Assembly (NCBI RefSeq): GCF_900109555.1
Contig: NZ_FNZV01000001.1
Coordinates: 124,001-188,000 of the forward strand
Length of the DNA stretch: 64,000 bases
Reading direction: 5' to 3'
DNA from: Pacificibacter marinus
Lineage (GTDB): Bacteria; Pseudomonadota; Alphaproteobacteria; Rhodobacterales; Rhodobacteraceae
Below the pieces are notes generated by a model, which saw only the letters and a list, made by a program, of their open reading frames with translations, searched no databases and was not told the DNA's origin. This document shows, piece after piece, positions 27,496 through 44,894 of the stretch (its first letter is position 1; each line of letters begins with the position of its first letter). The position numbers and the translations under genes were made by a program.

Positions 27496-28621
27496 TATCG
27501 CCCCCCCTATGCGACGCCCCCGCGACACTAAGATCGATGCATTTCGGGGATTGCTTTTGGTGATGATCTTTATCGATCACGTGCCGGGAAATTGGTACGA
27601 AAACCTCACATTGCGCAACTTGGGTTTCTCTGATGCCGCCGAAAGCTTTTTTCTTATGTCAGGCATAGCAGCCGGATTGGCCTATACGGCGGGCTTAACG
27701 CGCGCACGCGACGTTGGGCTTTGGGCTGGTATTGCACCGATCTGGAAACGCGCTTGGGTTCTTTATCTGTCCCATATTTTTCTAACCGTGGCAGGAATTG
27801 CGATCTTTGCCTTCAGCGCAGAATTTTTTGGCCTGACCGGACTTTTGGCGAAAAACAACCTGCGGCAAGTCTTTGAAAACACCGGCCCTGCCATCATTGG
27901 TATCGTGACGCTGGGACATCAGATTGGCTACGTTAATATCCTTCCTGCCTACTCAGTTCTTTTACTTGCAGCGCCATTTGCGATCCTTGTGGGGCGACGT
28001 AGGCCCTATATTCTACTCACTGTATCTGTGCTGCTTTGGTTTTTCATAGGACTGTTTCGCCTGAATATTCCGGCCTACCCAAACTCTGGCGGCTGGTTCT
28101 TTAATCCGCTCGCTTGGCAGCTTATCTTTGTCATCGGCTTGCTAACGGGAATGGCCCTGCGCGACGGAAAACGGTTTATTCCCAAAAGCCGGGTACTGTT
28201 TGTGGTGGCCGTTGGATGGCTCGTGTTCGTTTTGGCATGGCGCTACGTTCCGGGCTGGGGGGCGACCTTAAATCATGGAATGGCAAAGCTTTCGTCATTA
28301 GGCCTGCCATTTCATTTTACGTCACATGACAAGGCGTTTCTGCCACTGCTGCGCTTACTTCATGTTTTAGCGCTGGCCTATGTGATGTCGTATCTACCGT
28401 TCGTTACCCGCATCAGCGCCCACCCCTACGCCGAGCCTCTGCGCGTGATGGGCCGCCAAGGGCTGCTGGTCTTTTCCGCAGGGGCCTTGATGTCCCTAGC
28501 AGGTCAGGCTGCCCTCGTGTATTTCAAAGGGGTGACTATCGTGCCATGGCTTCTGGTGCCTATCGGCGTCCTAGCCCTATGGGGTCTTGCTTGGATCGGG
28601 GACTGGAAACGTCGAACGTGA
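27482..28621 (+). CDS. opgC: OpgC, periplasmic glucan succinyl/acyl-transferase
   Basis: A 379-residue polytopic membrane protein with about ten helices. The N-terminal DTKIDAFRGLLLVMIFIDHVPGNWYE is the OpgC-family acyltransferase motif (Arg and the His of IDH). It also has FFLMSGIAAGLAY and a C-terminal MGRQGLLVFSAGALMSLAGQ. OpgC transfers succinyl groups to periplasmic glucans, giving them negative charge. The ATG at 27482 overlaps the opgH end by 14 bp. It is the last gene of the opg operon. The other membrane acyltransferases (family 3) are the alternative, but position and motif favour OpgC. Confidence 0.88.
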   Translation: MSQPDIAPPMRRPRDTKIDAFRGLLLVMIFIDHVPGNWYENLTLRNLGFSDAAESFFLMSGIAAGLAYTAGLTRARDVGLWAGIAPIWKRAWVLYLSHIFLTVAGIAIFAFSAEFFGLTGLLAKNNLRQVFENTGPAIIGIVTLGHQIGYVNILPAYSVLLLAAPFAILVGRRRPYILLTVSVLLWFFIGLFRLNIPAYPNSGGWFFNPLAWQLIFVIGLLTGMALRDGKRFIPKSRVLFVVAVGWLVFVLAWRYVPGWGATLNHGMAKLSSLGLPFHFTSHDKAFLPLLRLLHVLALAYVMSYLPFVTRISAHPYAEPLRVMGRQGLLVFSAGALMSLAGQAALVYFKGVTIVPWLLVPIGVLALWGLAWIGDWKRRT

Positions 28622-28763: not shown

Positions 28764-29816
28764 TCACGCTTTACCTTGACGATTAAAGCGCAATGACGAC
28801 AGCAATGACGTCCCGATAATGGCGGCACCGATCAGTCCAGTTATAACCTCAGGCACATGAACCGCGCTTTGAGCAAACATGATCAGCGACAGCGCAAGAA
28901 TAGAATAGAACGCGCCGTGTTCGAGATAACGAAATGCGTTGAGCGTTTTTTTCTCGACGAGCATGATTGTCATCGACCGCACGTACATCGCGCCAACCCC
29001 CAGACCGATAGCGATCAGAAAAAGGTTCTGCGTCAGGGCAAATGCGCCGATGACCCCATCGAACGAAAAGCTTGCATCAAGGACTTCAAGATACAAGAAG
29101 GCACCAAAAGTCCCCTGCCGCGCCCCCCCCATCGCGGCACCACTGTCCACAACATCACTTGAATCCAAAATATGACTTAACCCGTCAACGCACAAAAACA
29201 CGACCGCGCCCACCAAAGCAGGTACAAAGAATTCACTTTGTTTGGCCTCGGGTAGGAAGCTGCCGAAAATTAAAATCGCAAACAACACCATGCCATAGCC
29301 AAGCCCTTTGATCGCCGCGCCTTTTTTAAGGTTCTTTTCGATTGAACACAGCCAGTCGATGTCTTTTTCATGGTCGATAAAAAAATCCAACGCCACCAAC
29401 ATCAAAAACGTTCCACCAAAGGCTGAGATCGACAGGTGGCTTTCTTGCATCAAGCGCGCGTATTCTTGCGGCTCTGAAATCGCAAGGTGCAGGGCCTCAA
29501 AAGGGCCGACCCAAGCGGCAATGGCGACAATCACAAGCGGAAAAATGATCCGCATTCCAAACACCGCAATCAGAATGCCCCAAGTTAAAAAACGGCGCTG
29601 CCACAGAGGCGACATGGTTTTCAATTTGTTCGCGTTCACGATTGCATTGTCAAAGCTCAGCGAAATTTCCAAGACGACAAGAACGGCCCCGATCAACAAA
29701 AACGTCACCGCGCCTGACGCCGTTCCTTCGGTTTTCCAGCCCAACCAATAAGCAGCAATCAAGCCAAGGACCGTGATCAAAAAAGACCATCTGAAATAAT
29801 GCATTGTCGTCTTCAT
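28764..29816 (-). CDS. DUF475 TerC-like integral membrane protein
   Basis: A 350-residue protein with about nine hydrophobic helices, of the DUF475 family related to TerC. Signature stretches are LEISLSFDNAIVNANKL near 50-66 and a repeat-like EVLDASFSFDGVIGAFALT near 250, acidic Asp/Asn sites embedded in helices as in TerC metal-transport-like proteins. A role in metal ion handling or exoenzyme metallation is known only for TerC relatives; for this family the function is open. It lies 56 bp after the ABC ATPase on the same strand, so read-through is possible, but nothing in the protein fits peptide uptake. Confidence 0.75.
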   Translation of the reverse strand: MKTTMHYFRWSFLITVLGLIAAYWLGWKTEGTASGAVTFLLIGAVLVVLEISLSFDNAIVNANKLKTMSPLWQRRFLTWGILIAVFGMRIIFPLVIVAIAAWVGPFEALHLAISEPQEYARLMQESHLSISAFGGTFLMLVALDFFIDHEKDIDWLCSIEKNLKKGAAIKGLGYGMVLFAILIFGSFLPEAKQSEFFVPALVGAVVFLCVDGLSHILDSSDVVDSGAAMGGARQGTFGAFLYLEVLDASFSFDGVIGAFALTQNLFLIAIGLGVGAMYVRSMTIMLVEKKTLNAFRYLEHGAFYSILALSLIMFAQSAVHVPEVITGLIGAAIIGTSLLSSLRFNRQGKA

Positions 29817-29872: not shown

Positions 29873-31486
29873 CTAAAGGGCCAATCGGGCGTCGCGGCGT
29901 TGTTTTTGCACGGCGGGATCAGGATCAAGCCCTGCCGCCAAAAGACGCTTGGTATAGGGTTTGCGCGGCGCTTCGAAAATCTGTTCGACAGAACCGTCCT
30001 CAACAATTTCACCTGACTTCATCACCAAAACACGATCGGCAAAATCACGTACGACGGGCAGATCATGCGCAATGAAAATAAAGGCAATCCCCAGATCATC
30101 CCGAAGCTTTCCCAACAGCTCAATCACTTGGGCTTGGATCGACACATCCAGTGCGGAAACCGCTTCGTCACAGATGATTAATTCTGGTTCAAGCGCAAGA
30201 GCGCGGGCAATGGCGATACGTTGACGTTGACCGCCAGAAAATTGATGCGGATAGCGTTCTGCATGACCAGCCTCTAGCCCGACTTGGTCCAAAAGTTCCT
30301 CGACACGCGCGCGCCATTTGTCTTTTGGCAAAACATCGCGATGTATCGCCCATGCTTCTGAAATAATTTGGAAAACCGTCATTTTTGGGTTCAAGGATTG
30401 TGTCGGGTCCTGAAACACCATTTGAATTTCACGACGGACTTTCGACATTTCTTTTGGCGTCTTTGTCAGCAGGTCTTCCCCCTTCCAAAGGGCTTTGCCG
30501 CCGCTTGAGCTTTCAAGACGTAAAACAAGCCGCGCAATGGTAGATTTCCCTGATCCGCTTTCCCCAACAACCGCCAAAGTTTCTCCTCGACGCACGTCGA
30601 ACGTCACACCTGACAAGGCATGAAAAGTGCCGTAACTTTTCTGCAATCCCTGTACGCAAAGAATAGGCGCGGCGGAAGGGTCAGGCTGGCGCATCACCCC
30701 TTTGCCCGGCGCGGCCGCGATCAGCTTTCGCGTATAGGGATGTTGCGCATTATGGTAAATGTCATGGGGGCGACCCGTTTCAACGATGCAGCCTTTTTCC
30801 ATCACCACAAGCCTGTCAGCGACATCAGCCACAACACCAAGGTCATGGGTGATCAGCACAAGCCCCATGCCTGTCTCATCTTGAAGCTCATGCAAAAGGG
30901 TCAGCACCTCGGCCTGCACCGTCACATCTAGCGCCGTCGTGGGTTCATCAGCGATCAAGATGTCAGGCTTTAACGCAAGCGCCATCGCGATCATCAAGCG
31001 TTGCCGCTGACCACCAGAAAATTCATGTGGGTATTTGTTCAAGGCCCCTTCGGGATCAGGAATGCCAACCCGTTTGACCAATTCCAAAGCACGCGCGCGG
31101 GCTTGCGCCGCGGGGCGTCCATGCGCCGTTACGGTTTCTTCAATCTGCCAGCCAACGGTGTAGACTGGGTTGAAATGGCTCATCGGGTCTTGGAAAATCA
31201 TCGCAATCCGTTTGCCGTTCAACGCACGGCGCGCCTCATTGTCCAGCTGCAATAAATCCTGCCCATCAAACAGAATCTCGCCAGATGTGATTTCCCCCGG
31301 AGGGCAATCAATCAAGTTCATGATGGCCGATGACGACACCGATTTACCAGAGCCAGATTCCCCCAAGATCGCCAGTGTTTCACCGCGATCAAGGTGCCAT
31401 GACACATCATTCACAGCATTCACAAAACCCTGTGCAGTGTGAAAGCGAACCGATAGATTACGGACTTCTAAAAGATGATCAGTCAT
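29873..31486 (-). CDS. Peptide-type ABC transporter, fused double ATPase (DppD-DppF type)
   Basis: A 537-residue protein with two complete oligopeptide-type nucleotide-binding domains. Domain 1 (about 5-260) has Walker A GESGSGKSVSS, signature FSGGQRQRLMIA and Walker B ILIADEPTTALD. Domain 2 (about 280-525) has Walker A GESGSGKSTIA, signature FSGGQRQRIAIA and Walker B LIICDEAVSALD. Each carries the short Dpp/Opp C-terminal tail. The ATG at 31486 follows GGAGGAAA and overlaps the upstream permease by 8 bp. It is last in the SBP-permease-permease-ATPase operon. Fused ATPases of this kind serve peptides and also nickel, glutathione and oligosaccharides. Confidence 0.92.
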   Translation of the reverse strand: MTDHLLEVRNLSVRFHTAQGFVNAVNDVSWHLDRGETLAILGESGSGKSVSSSAIMNLIDCPPGEITSGEILFDGQDLLQLDNEARRALNGKRIAMIFQDPMSHFNPVYTVGWQIEETVTAHGRPAAQARARALELVKRVGIPDPEGALNKYPHEFSGGQRQRLMIAMALALKPDILIADEPTTALDVTVQAEVLTLLHELQDETGMGLVLITHDLGVVADVADRLVVMEKGCIVETGRPHDIYHNAQHPYTRKLIAAAPGKGVMRQPDPSAAPILCVQGLQKSYGTFHALSGVTFDVRRGETLAVVGESGSGKSTIARLVLRLESSSGGKALWKGEDLLTKTPKEMSKVRREIQMVFQDPTQSLNPKMTVFQIISEAWAIHRDVLPKDKWRARVEELLDQVGLEAGHAERYPHQFSGGQRQRIAIARALALEPELIICDEAVSALDVSIQAQVIELLGKLRDDLGIAFIFIAHDLPVVRDFADRVLVMKSGEIVEDGSVEQIFEAPRKPYTKRLLAAGLDPDPAVQKQRRDARLAL

Positions 31487-32402
31487 TGGATTTTCCTCCA
31501 ATTTCAAGACGCCAGCGTTGCGTCGGATCAAGGGCGGTGCGCATCCAAGAGGACAATAAATTCAAAGACATCGTCGTCAAAATGATGATCAGACCCGGCC
31601 AGAACGCCAACCACCAAGCAGACGTCAAATACTGTCGACCTTGGCTGACCATCAAACCCCAAGTGATTTCAGGGGGTTGGATGCCAATTCCAAGAAATGA
31701 AAGCGCACTTTCGGCCAGCATGACAAATGCAAAATCGAGCGTCGCGATGGTGACAAGTGTTGGAAAAATCATCGGCAGGATATGACGAAAAATGATCCGC
31801 CCAGAGGAGGCTCCCATCACTTGGGCCGCTTGCACGAACATGCGTTCGCGAACTTCTAAGACTTCGGCGCGCGTGGTGCGCAGGTAAATCGGGATACGCG
31901 TGATGGCGAGGACGATGATCAAATTCCCCACGGACGGTTCTAAAATATACAGAACGATCACAGCCAACAAAAGCGATGGAAAGGACATGATAACATCCGC
32001 AAAGCGCATGATGATTTCACTCGGCCAACGGCCAAGGTACCCAGCAATAAGCCCAAGCGTGGCTCCAATCGTGATCGACAGCGCAACAGCACCCGCAGCA
32101 ACCATCATCGTGTTTTGCGCTGCCACAACGATGCGTGCAAAAAGTGGGCGACCCAAGGCGTCTCCGCCAAGAAAATAAACCCAGCCACGGTCCAATACAA
32201 ACGGCGGCGCATTGCGCGCCCGCAGGTTTTGTTTGCCCGCAACATCTTCAAGCAAGCTTGGCCCAATCAGCGCGCACAGGACAACAAGCAGCAAAAATGT
32301 GGTGGCAAAAAAGGCAAACTTATCAGCCCAAAGCATGGAAATGAAACGCCCAAAAACGGTTTTACGATGTGGGCGAACGGTGGCGGCAACGTGTTCTGAC
32401 AT
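31479..32402 (-). CDS. Peptide-type ABC transporter permease (DppC family)
   Basis: A 307-residue permease. An N-terminal cytoplasmic segment and first helix (about 25-45) come before a long periplasmic loop, which includes GDALGRPLFARIVVAAQNTMMVA. A five-helix core follows with the coupling motif QAAQVMGASSGRIIFRHILPM. It pairs with the DppB-type permease encoded upstream. The ATG at 32402 has AGGAG 9 bp upstream. It overlaps the ATPase gene by 8 bp. Confidence 0.9.
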   Translation of the reverse strand: MSEHVAATVRPHRKTVFGRFISMLWADKFAFFATTFLLLVVLCALIGPSLLEDVAGKQNLRARNAPPFVLDRGWVYFLGGDALGRPLFARIVVAAQNTMMVAAGAVALSITIGATLGLIAGYLGRWPSEIIMRFADVIMSFPSLLLAVIVLYILEPSVGNLIIVLAITRIPIYLRTTRAEVLEVRERMFVQAAQVMGASSGRIIFRHILPMIFPTLVTIATLDFAFVMLAESALSFLGIGIQPPEITWGLMVSQGRQYLTSAWWLAFWPGLIIILTTMSLNLLSSWMRTALDPTQRWRLEIGGKSND

Positions 32403-32413
32403 GACCAAAGCTC

Positions 32414-33328
32414 CTAGGTGCGAATACGTGGATCAAGGATGGCATAGGCCAAGTCGATCAACAGATTCATGATGAAGATAGCCAAAGCTGTGACCATGAT
32501 TGCGGCAAGAATGACATTGAAATCGCGCTGTAAAATGGCATCGATCATCAACTTGCCGACCCCCGGAAACCCAAAGATCGTTTCAACGATCACCGCACCA
32601 TTCAACAAAGCTGCGGCTTGATCGCCGATCACTGTGATGACGGGCAACATGGCGTTGCGCAACGTATGGACAAAGATCAGACGATTGTTTTTCACACCCT
32701 TAGCGCGCGCGGTTTTAACATAGGCTGATCCAAGCGCGGTCAACATCGATCCGCGCACCACTTGAAGGATCAAGCCAAAAGGCCGCAAGAATAGGATCGT
32801 GATGGGCAAAACCCAGTGCCAAACGGTGCCCGTACCAGAGGTCGGCAACCAGCCCAGCTGTAGCGAAAAGACAACGATCGCCACAATGGCAATCCAAAAA
32901 TCAGGGGCAGATGCACCGATCAGCGACAGCAACGAGGCCGCGCGATCAAAGAGCGACCCAACTTTAAAGGCTGCGATGGAACCGACAACGATTGCTGCGA
33001 TTGTCACTAAAGTCATCGTGATCGCGGCAAGCTGTAACGTCCAAACAAAGGCTTCCAACACAACATCAAGTGCGGGGCGTGCGCGTCGCAAGCTGTCGCC
33101 AAAATCACCGCGCAGCAGATCTCCAACATAGTGACCAAATTGCACAAGAAGCGGATCATTCAACCCATGAAGTTCGCGAAAGTTTTCGCGCATGCTTTCC
33201 GACGCATCCACAGGCAAGAACAAAGCCGAAGGATCCCCCGTCAAACGGGACAAAAAGAACACGAGGATCACAAGCCCGAACAGTGAAATAAGACTGGAAA
33301 TCGCACGTTGGCCGATCCGGTTTTTCAT
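32414..33328 (-). CDS. Peptide-type ABC transporter permease (DppB family)
   Basis: A 304-residue permease with six helices. The first (about 10-30) is followed by the periplasmic loop with RENFRELHGLNDPLLVQFGHYV, typical of DppB/OppB proteins. The coupling segment is YVKTARAKGVKNNRLIFVHTLRNAMLPV. The end is DLAYAILDPRIR, the usual C-terminus of this family. It is separated from the substrate-binding gene by 87 bp that include a 12-bp stem-loop, and from the DppC-type gene by 11 bp. Confidence 0.9.
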   Translation of the reverse strand: MKNRIGQRAISSLISLFGLVILVFFLSRLTGDPSALFLPVDASESMRENFRELHGLNDPLLVQFGHYVGDLLRGDFGDSLRRARPALDVVLEAFVWTLQLAAITMTLVTIAAIVVGSIAAFKVGSLFDRAASLLSLIGASAPDFWIAIVAIVVFSLQLGWLPTSGTGTVWHWVLPITILFLRPFGLILQVVRGSMLTALGSAYVKTARAKGVKNNRLIFVHTLRNAMLPVITVIGDQAAALLNGAVIVETIFGFPGVGKLMIDAILQRDFNVILAAIMVTALAIFIMNLLIDLAYAILDPRIRT

Positions 33329-33365
33329 GAAAATGCCCTGTATGTTTTGGTAGGAATTCAAGGAT

Positions 33366-33397
33366 GACTTTGCGCGGATCACGGCCCGCGCAAAGTC
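33366..33397 (-). other. Stem-loop between binding-protein and permease genes
   Basis: GACTTTGCGCGG (33366-33377) and CCGCGCAAAGTC (33386-33397) form a perfect 12-bp stem with an 8-nt loop in the gap after the substrate-binding gene. There is no T-run on the coding strand, so it is more likely an mRNA-stabilising hairpin than a terminator, raising binding-protein yield over permease. Confidence 0.75.
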
Positions 33398-33415
33398 GTT
33401 TTCTATCAACTGGGT

Positions 33416-34927
33416 TTAGTTGAATGTAATGTCAGCCAATTGCAAAGCGCCATTTGTGGCGATTGTTGGTGTGAAATTCACATTCTCGCCGACACGGGCA
33501 AAGCCAACCATGTGGAACAACAAACCATCTGACGCGATTTCATCGTGCAAGTAGGCAAATGTATCTTGCCACAATGCCACACGTTCGTCGCCTGTTGCGG
33601 CTGTCGCGCTGTCGATCAAAGCGTCCAGTTTAGGATCCATGATGCCAGACTGGCGGCCTTCTGAATGGTATTTGAAGAACATGGAAAACACAGGATCGCC
33701 ACGTGAATTGTCATGTTGCGCGCCAACCAAGTAAGGCGTGCCATCTACGAATGGACGTGAATAAAACTGTTCATGCTCAGCCACTTCCACCATTTGCAAA
33801 CGGGCGTTAAAGCCAGCATCGCCAAGCATAGATGTGATCGCTTCATAGACCTCAGTCGCCCCTGGGAAGTTGCCAGTACGGCCAACAACAAGGAATTCAG
33901 TATCCACAGGCACACCATCTGCAGCCGCTTCAGCCAGCAATTCTTTGGCGCGTTCAAGATCGTATGTTGGTGCTGCGATATCTGGGTTCCAGCCCAATGT
34001 GGATGGTGGAACAATCGCAACGGCGGGGATCACACCCTCGGACAAGATCGTGCCGATAAAGGCCTCGCGATCAATCGCAAGGTTCAGCGCTTGACGCACA
34101 CGCAGATCATCAAACGGCGCAGTGCCATGATCTATGCGCAAGTAAGTGGTTTCTGAGTTGGGATAAGACGCATCTGTTGCCGCATTGCTTGCCTCGATTG
34201 CAGAAATTGAGGGCGCGATATCAGCTTCGCCCGCTGCAACCATAGCTGCCCGCACTGCAGGTTCAGACCGGAACACATATGTTGCTGTTTCAACAGCTGG
34301 CGCTTCGCCCCAGTAATCGTCGCGGCGTTCCAAAGTGATGTTTTGACCCACATTCCATTCGGCCAACGTGTAAGGACCAGTGCCGATAGGGTCGCGGGTA
34401 AATTCCATCGCTGTTTCAGATGGCACGATGGTCAAAAGCGAAATCAACAATGGCATGATAGGCTGCGCTGGCACGGATTTGATGTCGAGTGTGTTGTCAT
34501 CAACGGCCGTAAACGTCAGATCGATCCCTTCGTAATACCGCGAGATTTCACAGGTGTTCGCATCGCTTTGTGTGCGTTCAAACGAATGGATCACGTCAGC
34601 AGCATCAAAAGCGGTGCCGTCTGAGAATTTCACACCTTGGCGCAGATTGAAACGCCATGTATTGTCATCCACCATGTCCCAGCTTTCGGCCAAGCGGGGC
34701 ATAACGCCCTTATCGCCGCGCACGTCAAGTTCGGTCAGGGTTTCTGAAATATTTTGCAGCACAACGCGGCCAATGTTTGACCGTGTCGCCATACATGGAT
34801 CAACAAGATCAAGTTCTTCGCTGAGAACGATGGTCACGCCCTTGTCTTGTGCAAATGCCGCGCCGCTGAGCGCGGGCACCATTGCGGCAGCCAGCACCAA
34901 GCCAGCAGTTAGGTTAGTCGTTTTCAT
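33416..34927 (-). CDS. ABC transporter substrate-binding protein, family 5 (peptide/nickel/oligosaccharide type)
   Basis: A 503-residue periplasmic binding protein. It has a signal peptide (about 1-26, ending in AFA), then SBP family 5 features: ETLTELDVRGDKGVMPRLAESWDMVDDNTWRF (split over residues 57-90), LRQGVKFSDGTAFDAADV, and GTAPFDDLRVRQALNLAIDREAFI. The ATG at 34927 follows GGGAGGATATC. It heads the importer operon. Family 5 proteins bind peptides but also sugars and acidic oligosaccharides. The neighbouring sugar-acid enzymes suggest a non-peptide ligand here, which is inference. Confidence 0.9.
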   Translation of the reverse strand: MKTTNLTAGLVLAAAMVPALSGAAFAQDKGVTIVLSEELDLVDPCMATRSNIGRVVLQNISETLTELDVRGDKGVMPRLAESWDMVDDNTWRFNLRQGVKFSDGTAFDAADVIHSFERTQSDANTCEISRYYEGIDLTFTAVDDNTLDIKSVPAQPIMPLLISLLTIVPSETAMEFTRDPIGTGPYTLAEWNVGQNITLERRDDYWGEAPAVETATYVFRSEPAVRAAMVAAGEADIAPSISAIEASNAATDASYPNSETTYLRIDHGTAPFDDLRVRQALNLAIDREAFIGTILSEGVIPAVAIVPPSTLGWNPDIAAPTYDLERAKELLAEAAADGVPVDTEFLVVGRTGNFPGATEVYEAITSMLGDAGFNARLQMVEVAEHEQFYSRPFVDGTPYLVGAQHDNSRGDPVFSMFFKYHSEGRQSGIMDPKLDALIDSATAATGDERVALWQDTFAYLHDEIASDGLLFHMVGFARVGENVNFTPTIATNGALQLADITFN

Positions 34928-35272
34928 GATATCCTCCCAAATGTATGAAACCCGCAGACAGAGGCTTATGGACACTCCCCCCAATAAACAGAACCCTGCG
35001 GCGACGATCATTTGCGATCAACAAAAGAATACAATCTTTTGAAACGCCGCCAACAATTGCCAACCCGATATTGGTAAAGTTGTATCAGGATGTCAAATAC
35101 CGTTTCCATATATCGTAATATTATTTTTAAATTATTGTTTTTAAAGTAATTATTACGCAACCACCGCCCTACAACCCACAGCGTAGCGTTATAACTTCTT
35201 GACAACTTTACATGTTTGAAATCAATTAAGGCGACTCGATAAGCAAAACGAACAAACCCATAGGAGAGCAGC
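34928..35272. promoter_or_regulatory. 345-bp divergent promoter region, AT-rich
   Basis: It separates the importer operon (minus) from the sialidase-fold gene (plus). Its contents are: the TATTGGTAAAGT motif at 35069-35080; GTAAAGTTGT at 35075-35084, repeated inverted at 35201-35210; an AT-rich tract 35090-35160 with CGTAATA (35114) and TATTACG (35151) as a 7-bp inverted pair; and TTGACA at 35199-35204, a possible -35 element without a good -10. No gene is visible. Confidence 0.6.
35069..35085. promoter_or_regulatory. Candidate FadR-type regulator site, importer/sialidase promoter
   Basis: TATTGGTAAAGTTGTAT. The first 12 bases are identical to 40424-40435 in the promoter of the DUF1537 kinase, and the TATTGGTAAA core also occurs inverted at 40519-40538. 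The shared word suggests common control by the GntR/FadR protein at 38542-39276. Confidence 0.55.
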
Positions 35273-36493
35273 GTGAAGCCAGATGAGATTGCCAGCCAGA
35301 TGACTGGTCTTGTAACACCACAGGGTGATACTCAGTCCGCAATTCTGCGATCCCCTGCCATTCAAAACCACGCCGCATTTCTTGCGCCCCTTGCTGGCGG
35401 AGACTTGGCCTGTGCGTGGTTTGGCGGCTCGCTTGAAGGCAAATCAGACATTTCGATTTACGCATCAATCTTACCTGAAGGCGCAGACACATGGTCGCCC
35501 CCATCACAACTGTCCGACCAATCAGATCGCTCTGAACAAAACCCCGTCATTTTCACCGCACCTGATGGTCAAATTTGGCTTTTCAACACAGCGCAACCCC
35601 ATGGAAACCAAGACGAATCTCGCGTTTACATGCGAAAAATCACCCGCGCGGGGACCGCGTTGCAATCAGGGGCAGCACGCGACATCGGACTGCCCCTAGG
35701 AACCTTTATTCGCGCGCCCATCACAGTGCGAGATGATGGGGCGTGGATGTTGCCTCTTTTCATCTGCAACCCGCGCGATGGCCTGCGCTGGACAGGTGCT
35801 TTTGACACTGCCGCCTTAGCCATATCCACTGACAGCGGCGCGACATGGACCGTGACCCACGTCCCTGCCTCAACCGGATCGGTCCACATGACCCCTGTAC
35901 CGCTGAACGATGGCAATATGGCAGCTTTCTATCGTCGCCGTCAGTCGGATTGGGTTCACAGGTCTGAAAGCACGGACGACGGGCGCACATGGTCTACCCC
36001 GCAGCCCACGGATGTTCCAAATAACAACAGCTCAATTGGTGTTTGCACCCTTGCAGACGGGACTTTGGCAATGGTCTGCAACCCTATTTCGGCGGCCCAA
36101 TCCCAATCTCGACGCACCTCCTTGTATGACGAACTGGAAGATGTGGATGACCGCCCTGATACCCAGCCAAATGACGCAGAGGGCCAGATCGCACCAGAGG
36201 GATGCACACCGATTTGGGGCGTTGAACGCGCACCCTTATCCCTGTGCCTCTCATCTGACGGCGGAAAAACATTCACCCGGCGCCATGTTATCGAAACCAG
36301 CACAGGTGCTTGCCTGACGAACGACTCGATTGATGGAAAAAACCAAGAATTATCCTATCCGATGATCCTGCCCCGCAAAGATGGCGGTCTCGACATCGCA
36401 TTCACGCTCCACCGCCGCGCAATCAAACACATTCGAATTTCGCCACAGGCGCTGGCCGACATCCGCGCAACGCGCACCCAAGAGGGGACCTAA
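35273..36493 (+). CDS. Cytoplasmic sialidase-fold (BNR_2) protein
   Basis: A 406-residue protein of the sialidase-like BNR_2 family. Three Asp-box motifs are visible: STDSGATW (185-192), STDDGRTW (233-240) and SSDGGKTF (327-334). The C-terminal YPMILPRKDGGLDIAFTLHRRAIKH resembles the family end in which Tyr and Arg form part of the active site. There is no signal peptide, so the substrate must be imported first. A GTG start follows AGGAG at 6 bp. It is first in an operon with an alcohol dehydrogenase and a DapA-type aldolase, and is divergent from the importer. The substrate is unknown; a sialic acid is not implied by the fold alone, and no nan genes are nearby. Confidence 0.75.
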   Translation: MKPDEIASQMTGLVTPQGDTQSAILRSPAIQNHAAFLAPLAGGDLACAWFGGSLEGKSDISIYASILPEGADTWSPPSQLSDQSDRSEQNPVIFTAPDGQIWLFNTAQPHGNQDESRVYMRKITRAGTALQSGAARDIGLPLGTFIRAPITVRDDGAWMLPLFICNPRDGLRWTGAFDTAALAISTDSGATWTVTHVPASTGSVHMTPVPLNDGNMAAFYRRRQSDWVHRSESTDDGRTWSTPQPTDVPNNNSSIGVCTLADGTLAMVCNPISAAQSQSRRTSLYDELEDVDDRPDTQPNDAEGQIAPEGCTPIWGVERAPLSLCLSSDGGKTFTRRHVIETSTGACLTNDSIDGKNQELSYPMILPRKDGGLDIAFTLHRRAIKHIRISPQALADIRATRTQEGT

Positions 36494-36494
36494 T

Positions 36495-37610
36495 ATGAGC
36501 ACCATGGATCGCAAAATCACACTGCACCAACCCAAACGCCTTGAGATTGGTCAGGGTACTGCAGCATTGCTGGGCACTTGGGCCTCAGGGGCAAAGCGCC
36601 CATTGATCATCGCCAGCGCCCCAACAGCACACTATGCGGATCGACTTGGACTAACAGGCGACGTGAAAACCTACAGTGACGTGCCGCCAGAACCCGCAGT
36701 TGGGGATCTTGAAGCCGTCTTGGCCGTTGCGCGAGAGGTTAAGCCCGATCTTGTTGTGGGACTTGGCGGCGGGTCTGTCATGGATCTCGCCAAATTGGTG
36801 GCCGTTTTGTGGGATGGCACGGATACGCTTTACGATGTCGCGGGCCCCAACAAGGTTAAAGGGCGCAAAACTGCCTTGGCGCAGATATCGACCACAGCGG
36901 GAACAGGATCAGAAGCAGGCATTCGCGCCCTTGTGACGGACCCTGCAACTAAAGCTAAGATCGCTGTAGAAAGCCCGCATATGCTGGCGGACATCGCTAT
37001 CCTTGATCCCGAATTGACCTATTCTGTACCAGCAGCCATTACGGCAGCGACAGGAATTGATGCGATGGCACATTGCGTTGAAGCCTTTACCAATATCAAC
37101 GCCCATGACCTGATCGATGGCTATGCGCGTATGGGATTTAACTTGGTGGGCAAATACCTTGCACGGGCGGTTGAAAACGGCAAAGACACCGAAGCGCGCG
37201 CGGGCATGATGTTGGCATCATACTATGGCGGCATCTGTTTGGGACCAGTGAACACCGCCGCTGGGCATGCTTTGGCCTATCCGCTTGGAACAAGATTGTC
37301 TTTGCCCCACGGGCTGGCAAACGCTATCATTTTCCCGCATGTCTTGGCCTTTAATGAATCTGCCTGCACGCATAAAACAGCCGAAGTCAGCGCCGCGCTT
37401 GGCCTGAATTCCGGCACAGACCTCACCCAAAGTGCTCATAAGTTTTGTGCAGACCTTGGCGTGGAAATGCGCCTCTCGCACCATGGCGCCAAGCAAGCAG
37501 ATCTGGCAGATTGGGCCGCCGAAGCCCACGCCATTCGCCGCCTGATGGACAACAACCCACGCGAGATGAGCGTCGATGACGTCACCGCAATTTACAACGC
37601 GGCCTATTAA
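36495..37610 (+). CDS. Iron-containing alcohol dehydrogenase family protein
   Basis: A 371-residue group III alcohol dehydrogenase. The NAD-binding GGGSVMDLAK lies at 91-100, TTAGTGSEAG at 133-142, and the metal ligands are Asp189 and His193 (GIDAMAHCVEAF), His258 (AAGHALAYPLG) and His272 (LPHGLAN). Members interconvert aldehydes and alcohols or act on hydroxy acids and maleylacetate. It starts 1 bp after the sialidase-fold stop and precedes the aldolase by 33 bp, so the three are one operon. A likely job is to reduce or oxidise the aldehyde released by the aldolase. Confidence 0.87.
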   Translation: MSTMDRKITLHQPKRLEIGQGTAALLGTWASGAKRPLIIASAPTAHYADRLGLTGDVKTYSDVPPEPAVGDLEAVLAVAREVKPDLVVGLGGGSVMDLAKLVAVLWDGTDTLYDVAGPNKVKGRKTALAQISTTAGTGSEAGIRALVTDPATKAKIAVESPHMLADIAILDPELTYSVPAAITAATGIDAMAHCVEAFTNINAHDLIDGYARMGFNLVGKYLARAVENGKDTEARAGMMLASYYGGICLGPVNTAAGHALAYPLGTRLSLPHGLANAIIFPHVLAFNESACTHKTAEVSAALGLNSGTDLTQSAHKFCADLGVEMRLSHHGAKQADLADWAAEAHAIRRLMDNNPREMSVDDVTAIYNAAY

Positions 37611-37643
37611 GTTACTGCCCTATTTGGCACAGAAGGAAACCCT

Positions 37644-38525
37644 ATGACCTCAACAGCTTTTGTAGCGCTCGTCACCTGTTTTGATAACGACGAAAACCTT
37701 GATCTCAAAGCAACACGGGCACAAGTGCGCCGTCAGGTCGCCGCAGGAAACGCGATTATGGCCGCAGGCACCAATGGTGATTTCTCAGCGCTCACCTTTG
37801 ACGAAAAGGTGCGATTGCTGGATGCCGTGAAAGACGAAGCAGGTGATAAAGTGCCCGTTTTTGCCAATGCAGGCATGCCCGCGACCTATGAGACCGAACG
37901 CCTTGCCAAGGAATTCGACCGCATTGGACTGGATGGCATTGCGGTCATCACGCCCTATTTCATTGACTGCACTCAAGACGGAATGGAACGGCATTTTGCA
38001 CGTGTGGCCGATGCCGTGCAGGCGCCCGTTTACCTGTATGACATCCCCGCACGGACACAAAACCACATCGAGCCCCAAACCGCCGCGCGACTTGCGAAGC
38101 ACGGCAATATCAAAGGCATCAAGGATTCAGGTGGTGCGCAAGACACCCTTGCGGCTTATCTGGAAGTGGGGCGCAATGCTGCGGATTTTGAGGTGTATTC
38201 CGGGCCTGACCATCTGGTTCTTTGGGCACTTCAAAACGGCGCTGCGGGGTGTATTTCCGGCCTTGGGAATGTGCTGCCAGACACTTTGGCAGAGCTTATC
38301 GCAGCCTTTGATGCAAATGACTTAGCCCGCGCCGAAGCCGCGCAGGCCCGCTACACTGCGTTTCGCACCGACCTTTATAAGCTTGGCTATCCGCCCGCCT
38401 TGGTCAAGCGCGCGCTTTGGTGCATGGACCCATCCGTCGGGGCCAGCCGCCAGCCAGCCTTGGTGCCAAATGCAGATCAAGATAAAGCCATTCGCCACGT
38501 CTTGGCAAAATACGATATTGCGTAA
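37644..38525 (+). CDS. DapA/NanA-family aldolase (class I, Schiff-base)
   Basis: A 293-residue TIM-barrel protein of the dihydrodipicolinate synthase/N-acetylneuraminate lyase family. The Schiff-base Lys160 is in IKGIKDSGG, the catalytic Tyr132 in VYLYDIPART, and the carboxylate-binding loop reads GTNGDFSAL (42-50) in place of GTTGE. Catabolic members cleave 2-keto-3-deoxy sugar acids to pyruvate and an aldehyde. The ATG follows AAGGAAA. It is last in the plus-strand operon and convergent with the regulator gene. True DapA is unlikely given the setting. Confidence 0.82.
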   Translation: MTSTAFVALVTCFDNDENLDLKATRAQVRRQVAAGNAIMAAGTNGDFSALTFDEKVRLLDAVKDEAGDKVPVFANAGMPATYETERLAKEFDRIGLDGIAVITPYFIDCTQDGMERHFARVADAVQAPVYLYDIPARTQNHIEPQTAARLAKHGNIKGIKDSGGAQDTLAAYLEVGRNAADFEVYSGPDHLVLWALQNGAAGCISGLGNVLPDTLAELIAAFDANDLARAEAAQARYTAFRTDLYKLGYPPALVKRALWCMDPSVGASRQPALVPNADQDKAIRHVLAKYDIA

Positions 38526-38541
38526 ATTCAACGTGCTGGGC

Positions 38542-39276
38542 TTACAGCTTTAGGTCCAGCATACTGCCGCCAAACAGCCGCTCGCGCGAGTGACTGATAT
38601 GGTTAAACATGACCTCGCGGGCGCGTGGTGCATCTTGTGTGTAAATAGCATCATAGATTGCGTGATGTTCGGCCAACACATCTTCCAATGCAGCCGCGCC
38701 ATCAGACATCAACGATTCCCCATGCATTTTCATCCCCACATGGATGTGCTCGCGTAGAGCCTTCAGCGTTTCGACGTAATATGAATTGTTCGCTCCGCCA
38801 GCCACAGCAACATGAAACGCGAAATCGGCGTCTTCTCGGTGCAATTGCGATCCTGTTGCCTCTGACAACATCGAAAGAGCGGCCTTCAGATCTTTCAACA
38901 CAGCATCGTTACGGCGCAGCGCGGCAAGGCCCGCGGCCTCGACTTCAATCGTCAGACGAAATTCATAGCACCGTTGAATATCGGCAATCGTTTCCACCTT
39001 GGCAAATCCCAAAGCATTACCTTTTTTGATGCGCACAAAGTTTCCCGCCCCTTGGCGAGAATAAATCAGCCCTTGTTCACGCAGCCGTTCCAAGGCCACG
39101 CGCAACACGGGACGCGACACACCAAATTGCGCAGAAAGTTCATTTTCGGCGGGCAGTTTTTCATTGACGTTATAATCGCCATTGTTGATCCGCGCATGCA
39201 TCAAGTCATAGACCTTGTCAGCCAACAGAGGGCGAGACCGGTTTTCCGGCTGCGAAGTTTCGACGGACTGGGACAT
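38542..39276 (-). CDS. GntR-family regulator, FadR (FCD) subgroup
   Basis: A 244-residue regulator. The winged helix-turn-helix lies at about 25-85 (LPAENELSAQFGVSRPVLRVALERLREQGLI). A helical FCD effector domain follows with the usual metal-binding histidines in DADFAFHVAVAGG, ALEDVLAEHHAIYDAI and VMFNHISHSRE. FCD regulators mostly sense sugar acids or other organic acids. The ATG overlaps the stop of the kinase gene (TAATG), so the kinase and its regulator are co-translated. The palindromes at 40519-40538 and related sites are its probable operators. Confidence 0.88.
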   Translation of the reverse strand: MSQSVETSQPENRSRPLLADKVYDLMHARINNGDYNVNEKLPAENELSAQFGVSRPVLRVALERLREQGLIYSRQGAGNFVRIKKGNALGFAKVETIADIQRCYEFRLTIEVEAAGLAALRRNDAVLKDLKAALSMLSEATGSQLHREDADFAFHVAVAGGANNSYYVETLKALREHIHVGMKMHGESLMSDGAAALEDVLAEHHAIYDAIYTQDAPRAREVMFNHISHSRERLFGGSMLDLKL

Positions 39277-40409
39277 TACAGGCTTTCTGAATTTGCTGAC
39301 TTAGGTAAATCATCTTGCTCACATTCGACCAAATGCGCAAGCCGAGTAAGCAGATTTACATCCCCAAAGCCTCCGGATTTTGTGACGATATCAATTGGTC
39401 CCCATGGGGCAATCCCACGACACAGCGGCAAGCCCTCGCAGACTTCGGTGATAACATCAAAGGTATTAATCTCAAGACGATCGAGAATGGCATTTGCGGT
39501 TTCACCACCGCAGACCAAAAGCGTTCGCGGCCGATACTGACCTAGCGCGGCGCAAAGACTCGTTGAAAGTTGCCGTCCCGCCTCATAGCCAGAGATGTCG
39601 AACGCCCCCTTCGTGAGCTGAAGTGTCGTGACCGCCCCTGTTTGATGGACCTCGGAATTGACGCCATTGGGGGCCATTTGGATAGGATGCGTTCTCGCGA
39701 GCTGTTCGGCCTGCGCCACCGTGATCGGATCGCGCGACCCAACCGCAACCCAAAGCGGACCATGCAAAGACGTGAACTCGGACTTTTGAGGGTCAGTTTT
39801 TTTATGCGCCGATGGCCGTTCCAATGACTGAGCCGATAACCGCGCCATTACCCGTGCCAGCGCAAACGCCAACCCACGCGCCCCAACCCACAAAGAAGCC
39901 TTGGGCGCTAAAGCGATCAAGCGGTCAAGGTCATCAAGATCATCGACATCAGGGATCACACTGTCATCGGGAAATTTGTCCGTCATAGTGCAAGGGTTTG
40001 CGAGGCCAGAACCAGATCCGACACCAACCAAAAACCCATTTTTTTGAATGCGCCCCATGTCAGGTATAGCGGGAACTGCGATGATATCAGTCCGGCCAGA
40101 CAGATCTGCAAGCGCAGCTGTTTCAGCTTTAATATGCCCCTTTAGGCGGGAATCGACCTTTTTGATAAGGGTAGGAATGCTGGCCAGATCAAGGCGCTGA
40201 GCGATGGTCCTGATTTTATCGACGGCCTGCGCAGCACTGCCTTCGCGACTGTTGGTATTGATGCACAAAACATCAACGCCCGCAGTCACATCAGCGGTCA
40301 AATGATCAACATCGCGCAACACACGCACCACTGCACCAGGATGCGCAAAAGCAACGGCGCTATCCAAAGCCCCTGTCAGGTCGTCTGCGATGATAAGGAT
40401 ATCAACCAA
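39276..40409 (-). CDS. Four-carbon acid sugar kinase (DUF1537 family)
   Basis: A 377-residue kinase of the DUF1537 family. The N-terminal half opens with ILIIADDLTGALDSAVAFA (5-23) and has INTNSREGSAAQA and TLIKKVDSRLKGHI. The C-terminal nucleotide-binding half has LLVCGGETANAILDRL and GPIDIVTKSGGFGD. Family members (DtnK, LtnD-linked kinases, OtnK) phosphorylate D-threonate, L-threonate or 3-oxo-tetronate. The start must be a TTG at 40409, since the N-terminal family motif begins four codons later. It is divergent from pdxA, the partner enzyme in threonate pathways. Confidence 0.87.
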   Translation of the reverse strand: MVDILIIADDLTGALDSAVAFAHPGAVVRVLRDVDHLTADVTAGVDVLCINTNSREGSAAQAVDKIRTIAQRLDLASIPTLIKKVDSRLKGHIKAETAALADLSGRTDIIAVPAIPDMGRIQKNGFLVGVGSGSGLANPCTMTDKFPDDSVIPDVDDLDDLDRLIALAPKASLWVGARGLAFALARVMARLSAQSLERPSAHKKTDPQKSEFTSLHGPLWVAVGSRDPITVAQAEQLARTHPIQMAPNGVNSEVHQTGAVTTLQLTKGAFDISGYEAGRQLSTSLCAALGQYRPRTLLVCGGETANAILDRLEINTFDVITEVCEGLPLCRGIAPWGPIDIVTKSGGFGDVNLLTRLAHLVECEQDDLPKSANSESL

Positions 40410-40422
40410 GAGATCACCCGCC

Positions 40423-40440
40423 TTATTGGTAAAGTAATAA
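40423..40440. promoter_or_regulatory. Regulator-site candidate upstream of the kinase gene
   Basis: TTATTGGTAAAGTAATAA has 5-bp TTATT/AATAA arms and contains the 12-base word TATTGGTAAAGT found again at 35069-35080. It starts 14 bp upstream of the kinase TTG, a position suited to repression. Confidence 0.58.
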
Positions 40441-40518
40441 ATTACTCACTTTTATCGATTAAACCTATATTTAATAGCATATTTTTCAAACATCAAGCTT
40501 TACAAGCCCATCATAATG

Positions 40519-40538
40519 AACTTATTTACCAATAAGTT
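40519..40538. promoter_or_regulatory. Perfect 20-bp palindromic operator upstream of pdxA
   Basis: AACTTATT-TACC-AATAAGTT has perfect 8-bp arms around a 4-nt centre, 35 bp upstream of the pdxA start. Read on the minus strand it contains CTTATTGGTAAA, identical to 40422-40433. It is the best-formed operator in the island. Confidence 0.68.
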
Positions 40539-40573
40539 ATATTTTACAATATTGCAGTATTTTGGAGACTCGC

Positions 40574-41548
40574 ATGCCCAGATCAATCGTCATCACCATG
40601 GGTGATCCGTCAGGCGTAGGTGCCGAAGTCACAGCCAAGGCCCTAGCCCAAGCCAGCATTAAAGATCGCGCGCGCACTGTTGTCATCGGGGACCGCCCGA
40701 CAATGGAACTTGCCGCCTCTATTTGCGGTGTTGATCTGCCCATTATAGGGCCTGACGATACGGAAGACGGGATTTGCGTCGAACATATCGAAGTCGCCGG
40801 CCTGCCCCGCCAGTTCGGTCTGCTTGATCCGGCCTGCGGCGAAGCATCGTTTCGCTACATTGAACGCGCGGTCGAAATCACCAGCGCCCTACCGGGCAGT
40901 TGCATTGTCACCGCCCCGATCAACAAAGAGGCACTGAATGCCGCAGGTCACCATTATGACGGCCATACAGGCATGTTAGCCCATCTCACAAAGTCAAAAT
41001 CATCGTGGATGTTGTTGGCTTCGGAAAAGCTATCGGTCGTGCATGTCTCGACCCATGTGTCCTTGCGCGATGCCATTGAACGCGCGACGATTGAGCGGGT
41101 TTTAGAAACCATTCGCACTGGCAACACACACCTAAAGCGTATGGGGGTTGCAGCCCCGCGCATTGCCGTTGCTGGCATCAACCCACATTGTGGTGAAAAC
41201 GGCCTATTCGGTACTGATGACGACACAGCACTGCGCCCCGCGGTTGCCGCCGCACAGGCAGAGGGCATTGATGTTGTCGGGCCTATATCTGCAGATACGG
41301 TTTACTATCGCGCCTATCAGGGGGCCTTTGATTTGGTGATTGCCCAGTACCACGATCAGGGTCACATTCCGATCAAACTGGTCGCCTTTGACACAGCCGT
41401 CAACGTGTCATTGGGATTACCGATTGATCGTTGCTCTGTCGATCACGGAACAGCTTTTGATATCGCAGGGAAAAATATTGCGGACCATACAAATATGATG
41501 TCAGCCCTAAGCTATGCATCACGCATGGTATCGGCAGGGAAAAAATAG
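40574..41548 (+). CDS. PdxA-family 4-phospho-hydroxy-acid dehydrogenase (catabolic PdxA2 type by context)
   Basis: A 324-residue protein of the PdxA family. It has [12 protein letters not shown] (8-19), the metal-binding His161 ([12 protein letters not shown]), His205 ([13 protein letters not shown]) and His260 ([11 protein letters not shown]), and ends on a helix typical of the family. PdxA oxidises 4-phosphohydroxythreonine for vitamin B6 synthesis. The PdxA2 branch oxidises threonate or erythronate 4-phosphate to dihydroxyacetone phosphate with loss of CO2, next to a DUF1537 kinase, exactly this setting. The ATG at 40574 follows GGAG; a TTG four codons upstream is rejected. Confidence 0.87.
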
Positions 41549-42216: not shown

Positions 42217-43305
42217 TTAGCGAATGGCGCGCCCATCGCCGGCGCGAAAGAAATGTAGCTTGTCCAAATCGAAATGGATCTGACGGCGCTCGCCCGGCTC
42301 GGCGCGTGTGCCCGCAGCCACTTGGCCTGTAAATTTCGCCCCTGCCGCAAGACCAATCAACATGGTGTGCGGGCCCAAAGGTTCGATATCGACCACTTCA
42401 ATCTCGACAGATGGCCCTGTGCCGCCCGTGTCAAACGTATGCTCAGGACGAATACCCATAACGCAAGGCTGCCCCACGTATGAGATCAAGGCAGGCACAC
42501 GGTCTTTTGGCAAAGCAAACTGTACGCCAGCAGGTCCGCAAAAATGCAAAGTGCCGTCGATGTCTTCGATCTGCCCATCCAACATATTCATGCTGGGCGC
42601 TCCGATAAAGCCAGCTACAAACTGGTTTGCGGGGCGTTCATACAGCGTGATCGGATCTGCGGCTTGTTCAATCACACCATCGCGCAGCACAACCACGCGG
42701 TCCGCCATAGTCATCGCTTCGACCTGATCGTGGGTGACATAAACCATCGTGGTTTTAAGACGGCGGTGAAGTTGCTTGATCTCAACCCGCATCTCGACCC
42801 GCAGCTTGGCATCCAGATTGGACAGCGGTTCGTCGAACAAAAACACATCGGGGTCACGCACAATCGCGCGGCCAATGGCGACACGTTGACGTTGGCCACC
42901 AGACAGTGCTCCAGGCTTGCGGTCTAGGTAATCGGTCAGGTTCAAAATACGGGCAGCATTGGCGATGGCAGCCTCGGCTTCGGGTTTGGCGACACCGCGC
43001 ACTTTCATGCCATAGCCGATATTATCGCGCACACTCATATGCGGGTAAAGCGCGTAGCTTTGGAAGACCATGGCACAGTTGCGCAAACCGGGGCGCAAGG
43101 TGGTGACATCACGATCACCGATTTTCATTGTGCCGCCCGATTGGGTTTCCAATCCGGCAATCATACGCAGCGTTGTTGACTTGCCACAACCCGATGGGCC
43201 GACAAGCACAACGAACTCCCCCTCTTCAATCTCAAGGTCCATGGGCGGGATCACTTCAACGGCCCCGTAGGATTTTGTCACGCTGCTCAGTGTTATATTT
43301 GCCAT
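42217..43305 (-). CDS. Sugar ABC transporter ATP-binding protein (UgpC/MsmK type)
   Basis: A 362-residue ATPase. Walker A GPSGCGKS lies at 36-43, with the Q-loop MVFQSYALYPHMSV, signature LSGGQRQRVAIGRA, Walker B VFLFDEPLSNLDAKLR and switch YVTHDQVEAMT. A C-terminal TOBE/OB domain follows (about 240-355, with VMGIRPEHTF). It energises a carbohydrate importer of the CUT1 class. The ATG at 43305 is taken from homology of the N-terminus. It lies after the binding-protein gene, behind a stem-loop at 43343-43374. Confidence 0.92.
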   Translation of the reverse strand: MANITLSSVTKSYGAVEVIPPMDLEIEEGEFVVLVGPSGCGKSTTLRMIAGLETQSGGTMKIGDRDVTTLRPGLRNCAMVFQSYALYPHMSVRDNIGYGMKVRGVAKPEAEAAIANAARILNLTDYLDRKPGALSGGQRQRVAIGRAIVRDPDVFLFDEPLSNLDAKLRVEMRVEIKQLHRRLKTTMVYVTHDQVEAMTMADRVVVLRDGVIEQAADPITLYERPANQFVAGFIGAPSMNMLDGQIEDIDGTLHFCGPAGVQFALPKDRVPALISYVGQPCVMGIRPEHTFDTGGTGPSVEIEVVDIEPLGPHTMLIGLAAGAKFTGQVAAGTRAEPGERRQIHFDLDKLHFFRAGDGRAIR

Positions 43306-43342
43306 TGGGATGTCTCTTTTATTCGGTAAGCATGTCGGGAAA

Positions 43343-43374
43343 GTACCGCCCGCCCCGCGAAAGGCGGACGGCAC
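43343..43374 (-). other. Stem-loop after the sugar-binding-protein gene
   Basis: GTACCGCCCGCC (43343-43354) pairs with GGCGGACGGCAC (43363-43374), ten Watson-Crick pairs of twelve, around an 8-nt loop. No T-run follows on the coding strand. Same place and size as the hairpin at 33366-33397. Confidence 0.65.
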
Positions 43375-43393
43375 CAGTTGTCTTGCCTCTGCG

Positions 43394-44845: not shown

Positions 44846-44894
44846 CTTATTTCTCCTCCTCGAGAAAGCCCCTCCCTAGGGCCGTTGCAATAAA

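Follow-up and report, generated by a model that had tools for sequence, protein, structure and literature searches.

What substrate could bring together in one locus a peptide-type importer, a protein with the fold of sialidases, a DapA-type aldolase and enzymes of four-carbon (C4) sugar acid catabolism? The question is raised by a stretch of the Pacificibacter marinus genome (RefSeq assembly GCF_900109555.1, contig NZ_FNZV01000001.1, positions 124,001 to 188,000), whose 64,000 nucleotides, hereafter the window, lie within a 674-kb contig of a 3.87-Mb genome and carry these genes as an island at positions 29873-41548. Our answer, to which we assign a probability of about 0.65, is that the island encodes a linear breakdown of a 2-keto-3-deoxy seven-carbon (C7) diacid to D-threonate. 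For the more specific proposal that this diacid is Dha (3-deoxy-D-lyxo-hept-2-ulosaric acid) we see an even chance.

The proposed pathway would begin with import of a small Dha glycoside by the family 5 ATP-binding cassette (ABC) importer (step 1), from which the cytoplasmic sialidase-fold protein would free Dha (step 2). The DapA-type aldolase would then split Dha between C3 and C4 into pyruvate and D-threuronate (2,3-dihydroxy-4-oxobutanoate; step 3), yielding a C3 compound and a C4 semialdehyde acid, as in the reverse of the reaction in which DapA joins pyruvate to aspartate semialdehyde, its natural partner and likewise a C4 semialdehyde acid. Reduction of D-threuronate by the Fe-type alcohol dehydrogenase (Fe-ADH) would give D-threonate (step 4), which the DUF1537 kinase would convert to D-threonate 4-phosphate (step 5), and the PdxA-family protein would oxidise and decarboxylate the latter to dihydroxyacetone phosphate and CO2 (step 6); steps 4 and 6 would be redox-balanced if both dehydrogenases use NAD(H). 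The stereochemistry, worked by hand, is consistent with this scheme: Dha in its D-lyxo configuration (C4 left, C5 left, C6 right), when cleaved, reduced and renumbered from the carboxylate, has C2 left and C3 right, which is D-threonate, and the same rule applied to Kdo (3-deoxy-D-manno-oct-2-ulosonic acid) gives D-arabinose. Gene content, conservation, a shared operator-like site, the enzyme families and the catalytic lysine and tyrosine of the aldolase are read directly from the sequence; every substrate we infer, with steps 2-4 drawn from chemistry and context and steps 5-6 from relatives that exceed curated cut-offs and from the reported D-threonate pathway.

The island genes are one conserved system and not three independent units. 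We assembled 39 loci that contain the sialidase-fold gene with its flanks, from 5 named genomes, 20 further genomes and 14 plasmid regions, the last hand-picked from 295-298 matching records and not a random draw (genome G509 was left out). Within these loci Fe-ADH is present in 36, the DapA-type aldolase in 35 and PdxA in 34, while the DUF1537 kinase is found in 28 and all four enzymes in 26; the latter two counts rise to 31 and 29 once L040-L042 are extended, where the kinase and the GntR gene lie just beyond the stretch examined at first. These figures include loci on short contigs (L008, L036 and L039), near-duplicate sets (L052/L064/L065, L047/L048/L060 and L057/L058), the broken cluster L043, and a kinase (L056) and an aldolase (L058) each in two pieces; L077 and L078, found via an Fe-ADH search and also possessing the sialidase-fold gene, stand outside the 39. 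The set occurs in alpha-, beta- and gammaproteobacteria with varying order and constant content, which argues for a shared function. Across 295 genomes of the family to which the window belongs (its own included), the sialidase-fold protein was recovered in 12 (E 1e-30), Fe-ADH in 13 and PdxA in 11 (E 1e-100), with sialidase-fold protein and Fe-ADH together in 11 and sialidase-fold protein and PdxA together in 9. The twelfth sialidase-fold genome, G067 (L043), has a broken copy, and the extra Fe-ADH genomes, G051 and G088, have clusters lacking the sialidase-fold gene. A preliminary description of this DNA had proposed a single catabolic island joining an importer, a cytoplasmic sialidase-fold protein, a keto-deoxy-acid-type aldolase, a C4-acid kinase and PdxA, and had named as a refuting result neighborhood searches in which the units do not co-occur; their co-occurrence is wide, and the proposal was not refuted.

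All ten open reading frames (ORFs) of the island are open and uninterrupted at the coordinates first assigned to them, and each named domain exceeds its Pfam cut-off, confirming the genes, their domains and the three-unit layout. Together with the operator-like sites, the features are:

29873-31486, minus strand: double ATP-binding protein of the ABC importer (peptide/nickel/opine class), with ABC_tran (221.7 bits over two stretches) and oligo_HPY
31479-32402, minus strand: ABC permease of the OppC/DppC type, with BPD_transp_1
32414-33325, minus strand: ABC permease of the OppB/DppB type, with BPD_transp_1
33416-34927, minus strand: family 5 solute-binding protein, SBP_bac_5 (255.9 bits), signal peptide recognized by eye
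35069-35078, plus strand: operator-like TATTGGTAAA between the importer and the sialidase-fold operon, from the pattern count
35273-36493, plus strand: sialidase-fold protein, BNR_2 propeller (205 bits), proposed to free the keto-deoxy diacid
36495-37610, plus strand: Fe-ADH with its N- and C-terminal domains, proposed D-threuronate reductase
37644-38525, plus strand: DapA-type class I aldolase, DHDPS (PF00701, 184.3 bits), proposed Dha aldolase
38542-39276, minus strand: GntR/FCD regulator with GntR and FCD domains, which probably regulates the whole island
39276-40409, minus strand: DUF1537 four-carbon acid sugar kinase, SBD_N (87.5 bits) and NBD_C (60.6 bits), proposed D-threonate 4-kinase
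40424-40433, plus strand: operator-like TATTGGTAAA near the kinase start, from the pattern count
40525-40534, minus strand: operator-like TATTGGTAAA near the PdxA start, from the pattern count
40574 (listed ORF start 40562) to 41548, plus strand: PdxA-family dehydrogenase (330.7 bits), proposed D-threonate-4-phosphate dehydrogenase

The importer operon is divergent from the operon of the sialidase-fold, Fe-ADH and aldolase genes, and the GntR-kinase unit converges on the aldolase gene and diverges from PdxA. The operator-like TATTGGTAAA occurs 4 times in the 64 kb against an expectation of 0.04, and three of these occurrences are found in the two regions that hold the divergent promoters, thereby tying the importer, the sialidase-fold operon, the kinase and PdxA to one control. 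The GntR protein, as the simplest candidate, probably controls both promoter regions through this site. TTGGTAAA precedes the sialidase-fold gene in 7 of the 39 relatives, where its frequency across these loci would predict about 0.26, but it precedes the kinase in just 2 of 24 and PdxA in 1 of 33; the shared site is thus seen in the window and in few of its kin. A looser operator pattern allowing two mismatches gave a weak signal (4 found, 1.2 expected, with 5 of 100 shuffles giving as many), where that of the exact ten-base form was strong. The remaining copy of TATTGGTAAA falls within the coding region of Fe-ADH (37086-37095, minus strand), either by chance or as an internal operator.

Away from the island the genome encodes a true DapA (338 bits, cut-off 206) and another PdxA (398 bits), and the DapA-type and PdxA proteins of the island are for this reason extra paralogues; roles of the island copies in lysine or vitamin B6 synthesis were considered and rejected on the same ground. 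DUF1537 genes number four in the Pacificibacter genome as a whole. Upstream of the island, 25699-28621 encodes an OpgC protein and a family 2 glycosyltransferase, which likely serve glucan synthesis, and 28764-29816 a DUF475/TerC membrane protein. Downstream, 42217-46795 encodes another ABC importer, of the sugar type (MalK-type ATPase, SBP_bac_1 and permeases, the second recognized by eye), which has no evident connection with the island.

The lower half of the proposed pathway has a precedent in the DUF1537 kinase DtnK, which together with PdxA2 is said to turn D-threonate into dihydroxyacetone phosphate (work attributed to Zhang et al. in 2016). The island uses the same kinase and dehydrogenase families, here as the lower half of a longer set that also includes an aldolase and Fe-ADH. 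The window kinase combines SBD_N and NBD_C, the pair that defines the DUF1537 family, both above cut-off, and the window PdxA scores 349.2 bits against TIGR00557 (cut-off 290.35). Two relatives exceed curated cut-offs: the PdxA of Pantoea ananatis (L064) scores 668.2 with the D-threonate-4-phosphate dehydrogenase model (cut-off 583), and the L050 kinase scores 613.5 with the D-threonate kinase model (cut-off 450); the L050 genome belongs to the same family (f49) as that of L052, whose sialidase-fold protein is 99.5% identical to that of Pantoea. Given that these relatives pass curated cut-offs, the C4 acid is probably D-threonate in at least some versions of the cluster, and probably also in the window. 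Passages of the literature describe DUF1537 D-threonate and D-erythronate kinases, including DtnK (PMC10971088), and assign PdxA2 to organic-acid catabolism (PMC9997740).

Sequence profile comparisons of the aldolase place it nearest to the dapA model TIGR00674, at 198.7 bits just under the cut-off of 206.15, with the HpaI-like, NanA, 2-keto-3-deoxygluconate (KDG) aldolase and KdgD models giving 143.5 bits or less. Lys160 and Tyr132, which we take to be the Schiff-base lysine and the catalytic tyrosine, are present in all 35 cluster aldolases, as is typical of the class I DHDPS family to which DapA (4-hydroxy-tetrahydrodipicolinate synthase) also belongs. Further, Arg137 of the window aldolase aligns with the arginine of solved DapA proteins (Arg138 in Escherichia coli) that binds the carboxylate of the semialdehyde. 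Across the 35 aldolases, the window's included, this position is occupied by Arg in 16, Lys in 2 and a hydrophobic residue in 16, with 1 misaligned; the DapA arginine is thus retained in the window's type, and the hydrophobic residue marks a second type.

Variants of the cluster help to define which genes act together. In L067, from a genome of the window's own family, the sialidase-fold gene is absent; in its stead, genes for a tricarboxylate-type transporter (TctA and TctC) and a D-isomer 2-hydroxyacid dehydrogenase (identified by Pfam) accompany those for aldolase, Fe-ADH, kinase, PdxA and GntR protein. L068, also from this family and without the sialidase-fold gene, looks like L067, its transporter and hydroxyacid dehydrogenase being recognized by eye. 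L079, from another family, similarly lacks the sialidase-fold gene; it has the kinase, PdxA, Fe-ADH and an aldolase of type 2, together with what looks by eye like a 2-hydroxyacid dehydrogenase of the FAD type; no transporter was found at this locus. On a plasmid of Caballeronia sp. SBC1 the aldolase, Fe-ADH and a natural fusion of the DUF1537 kinase to PdxA (768 aa, L063:7043-9349) are encoded in a row. The retention of the four enzymes in L067, L068 and L079 and the gene order in Caballeronia make the aldolase, Fe-ADH, kinase and PdxA look like consecutive steps of one line. In the Pantoea and Caballeronia loci a sodium:solute symporter adjoins the sialidase-fold gene (Pfam SSF in L064), and in the three Pantoea loci so does a YhcH/YjgK/YiaL protein (DUF386 by Pfam in L064), along with a short-chain dehydrogenase (SDR). 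YhcH is described as an anomerase that supplies N-acetylneuraminate aldolase with its substrate in open form (PMC8141875); with such a protein in Pantoea, an aldolase for an open-chain keto-sugar acid would be the natural reading there. These variants fit a core that acts on a free 2-keto diacid, supplied by glycoside cleavage where the sialidase-fold gene is present and by uptake of the free acid, perhaps with oxidation at C2, where it is absent.

An alternative retains the linear logic with another 2-keto-3-deoxy C7 diacid. This compound could differ from Dha in its stereochemistry, could be modified or in an anhydro form, or could enter as a 2-hydroxy acid that is then oxidised. The sequences name nothing as Dha itself, and the recurrence of 2-hydroxyacid dehydrogenases (by eye also in L051 and, as the FAD type, in L078, in addition to L067, L068 and L079) suggests a reduced entry compound in those clusters. 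However, Dha is to our knowledge the only natural diacid of this class, and its stereochemistry leads to D-threonate, the acid specified in the curated models whose cut-offs the relatives exceed; we thus regard another C7 diacid as unlikely.

In the preliminary description the genes were instead distributed over two branches: an acidic oligosaccharide or glycoside would be imported and trimmed in the cell, a keto-deoxy acid would be cleaved to pyruvate and a small aldehyde handled by Fe-ADH, and a separate C4 acid, released from the same glycoside or ester, would pass to the kinase and PdxA. Import, intracellular trimming and the pyruvate-yielding cleavage are retained here, while the separate C4-acid branch has lost ground: L067, L068, L079 and the Caballeronia gene order point to one line, and we replace the two branches by a single line via a C7 diacid and D-threonate, at the probability given at the outset. 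Consistent with the branched scheme, Fe-ADH is about as similar to lactaldehyde reductase (196 bits) as to 4-hydroxybutyrate dehydrogenase (201 bits), both scores being below cut-off, and the type-2 aldolase also matches YagE, an aldolase of the 2-keto-3-deoxy-galactonate type (89.5 bits). The family scores of Fe-ADH and the GntR protein gave no discrimination between substrates, and neither these two nor the solute-binding protein reached an equivalog cut-off among NCBIfam models. The joint presence of the four enzymes in clusters without the sialidase-fold gene and the DapA-type arginine in the window's aldolase type both speak against two branches, which we therefore consider improbable.

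In the sialidase-fold protein no signal peptide is evident by eye, and a cytoplasmic location is a reasonable prediction. An AlphaFold model built from a six-sequence alignment (mean predicted local distance difference test score 82.4, with residues 286-314 poor) was compared with the PDB using Foldseek, and 49 of the 50 matches listed were named sialidase, neuraminidase, trans-sialidase or NanH; the best match among those listed was 1wcq (E 9.4e-16, template modelling score 0.67), with E-values in the list ranging to 5.7e-12. Three Asp-box motifs are recognizable by eye, and the protein thus has the propeller fold with Asp boxes of the glycoside hydrolase family 33 (GH33) sialidases, at 10-15% identity to these and other BNR_2 propellers.

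Several observations weigh against the linear Dha pathway, beginning with the residues of this very protein. GH33 sialidases possess a catalytic Asp and Glu and a cluster of three arginines, the first of which lies in an N-terminal RIP motif. In contrast, the usual sialidase residues do not appear to be kept here, and the three-arginine cluster is not recognizable: no Arg is conserved to 90% within residues 1-54 in an alignment of 24 sequences, the invariant His205 is aligned with a Glu of sialidases B and C (in a stretch of 24-26 bits), and the invariant Glu55 perhaps falls on an Asp of sialidase B, in a non-significant stretch of 6 bits. The invariant Arg221, for its part, aligns with an Arg of the pneumococcal-type sialidases B and C. 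Because the conserved residues seem to differ from the sialidase set, we do not class the protein as a sialidase. Its simplest role would be that of a cytoplasmic enzyme which cleaves a small glycoside after import and so releases a keto-sugar acid; alternatively, it may act as a lyase, mutarotase or hydratase.

Further points on the same side concern the enzymes downstream. The 16 type-2 aldolases with a hydrophobic residue at the DapA arginine position are 26-32% identical to that of the window and, lacking this arginine, must recognize their substrate differently; the one searched had as its closest solved structure 3b4u, labelled dihydrodipicolinate synthase (153 bits). The window kinase scores 105.3 against the D-threonate kinase model NF047819, its best NCBIfam model, with a cut-off of 450, and the window PdxA 284.8 against the D-threonate-4-phosphate dehydrogenase model NF002891, with a cut-off of 583. 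The three Pantoea plasmid records (L062, L064 and L065) contain no DUF1537 gene; G466, the genome of L052 and nearly identical to L064 in the sialidase-fold gene, possesses two DUF1537 genes elsewhere. L046 and L062 have the sialidase-fold gene with full flanks and none of the four enzymes, and L035 has no PdxA within reach. The set is also patchy, with the sialidase-fold gene in 11 of 398 genomes of the phylum and the Fe-ADH orthologue in 4 of 385 of the class. Finally, the analysis turned up no gene specific to Dha and no datum on growth or binding, and no pectin- or RG-II (rhamnogalacturonan II)-degrading gene was noticed in the annotated plasmid neighborhoods (L057 carries no annotation).

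The sialidase fold naturally brings to mind the catabolism of sialic acid, KDN (2-keto-3-deoxynononic acid) or Kdo. Sialic acid catabolism employs a transporter, the YhcH anomerase, the NanA aldolase and NanR, and the island shares with it the keto-deoxy logic, an aldolase of the DapA/NanA superfamily, a GntR regulator (which matches the NanR model with 86.5 bits, cut-off 260) and, in the Pantoea versions, the YhcH-type and sodium symporter genes. However, the aldolase is DapA-like and falls far under the N-acetylneuraminate lyase cut-offs (113.4 versus 281 for PRK04147; 80.1 versus 382 for TIGR00683), the cytoplasmic-looking propeller does not appear to keep the sialidase residues, and NanE, NanK, NagA and NagB are not named among the annotated neighbors. 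Moreover, C4 acids are the substrates of the kinase and PdxA families, which does not suit the C5-C6 aldehydes that sialic acid, KDN and Kdo yield, so we reject an ordinary pathway of this kind as very unlikely. The remaining explanation, that the island scavenges D-threonate or erythronate with the sialidase-fold, aldolase and Fe-ADH genes merely hitch-hiking, draws on the described D-threonate and D-erythronate kinases and the reported kinase-PdxA2 route to dihydroxyacetone phosphate, but it is rejected as extremely improbable, since Fe-ADH is the most constant partner in the 39 loci and tracks the sialidase-fold gene across genomes.

The linear Dha pathway may also be considered in light of where the genes are carried. 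Of 72,556 plasmid records, 295 match the sialidase-fold protein at E 1e-40, including 128 from Rhizobium, 78 from Sinorhizobium, 27 from Pantoea, 17 from Agrobacterium and others; among the matches listed, nodules, roots, leaves or soil are the source of many carriers, and saline or intertidal sites of some. Sinorhizobium meliloti 1021 likewise possesses the sialidase-fold gene, whose neighbors were read in two other strains (L057 and L058). The importer ATPase has an orthologue (67-81% identical) in 19 of the 39 loci, and a different peptide-type importer (less than 50% identical) is present in most of 9 others. An SDR gene is found next to or near the sialidase-fold gene in L061-L065 (annotated or by Pfam) and in L046, L050 and L051 (by eye), and is kept even in L046 and L062, where the aldolase set is absent. 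L043 of G067 is in decay, with its sialidase-fold, Fe-ADH, window-type aldolase, PdxA, GntR and importer genes in pieces and its kinase and a different DapA paralogue apparently whole.

Known chemistry accounts for the lower half of the pathway, and the complete catabolic route would be new, with its enzymes drawn from known families. The preliminary description had noted that it knew of no pathway for such a set, and we likewise found no description of the gene set or of Dha breakdown in the open-access literature, which takes in few subscription papers, so that a description elsewhere is possible. Bacteroides reportedly degrades RG-II with secreted or periplasmic glycosidases (as attributed to Ndeh et al. 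in 2017); such degradation would release Dha from the same polymer, and we know of no described fate for the Dha so freed. Passages of several papers place Dha in RG-II (PMC12168206, PMC12282258) and in prasinophyte scales and the theca of Tetraselmis (PMC10762512), and a reference title (Russa et al. 1991, cited in PMC5713287) places it in the lipopolysaccharide core of Rhizobiaceae. In passages of a 2025 review (PMC12168206) the nucleotide form of Dha is given as undefined, its transferase as merely putative and Dha standards as lacking.

Tentatively, and with more doubt than confidence, the island might represent the first Dha catabolic pathway, patchily distributed and often plasmid-borne in plant-, algae- and root-associated bacteria, with a natural source of D-threonate and a sialidase-fold enzyme that would act as a keto-sugar glycosidase of a new type, its catalytic residues being altered. 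If this is true, these bacteria would harvest Dha from RG-II, from prasinophyte scales and from the lipopolysaccharide of their neighbors, and D-threonate would have a natural origin. Dha is among the rarest plant-wall sugars. With a defined operon, enzymes would become available for its detection, for its synthesis by the reversed aldolase reaction and for its removal. A plasmid-borne trait common in rhizobia, agrobacteria and Pantoea would then be linked to a carbon source found at roots, leaves and green algae.

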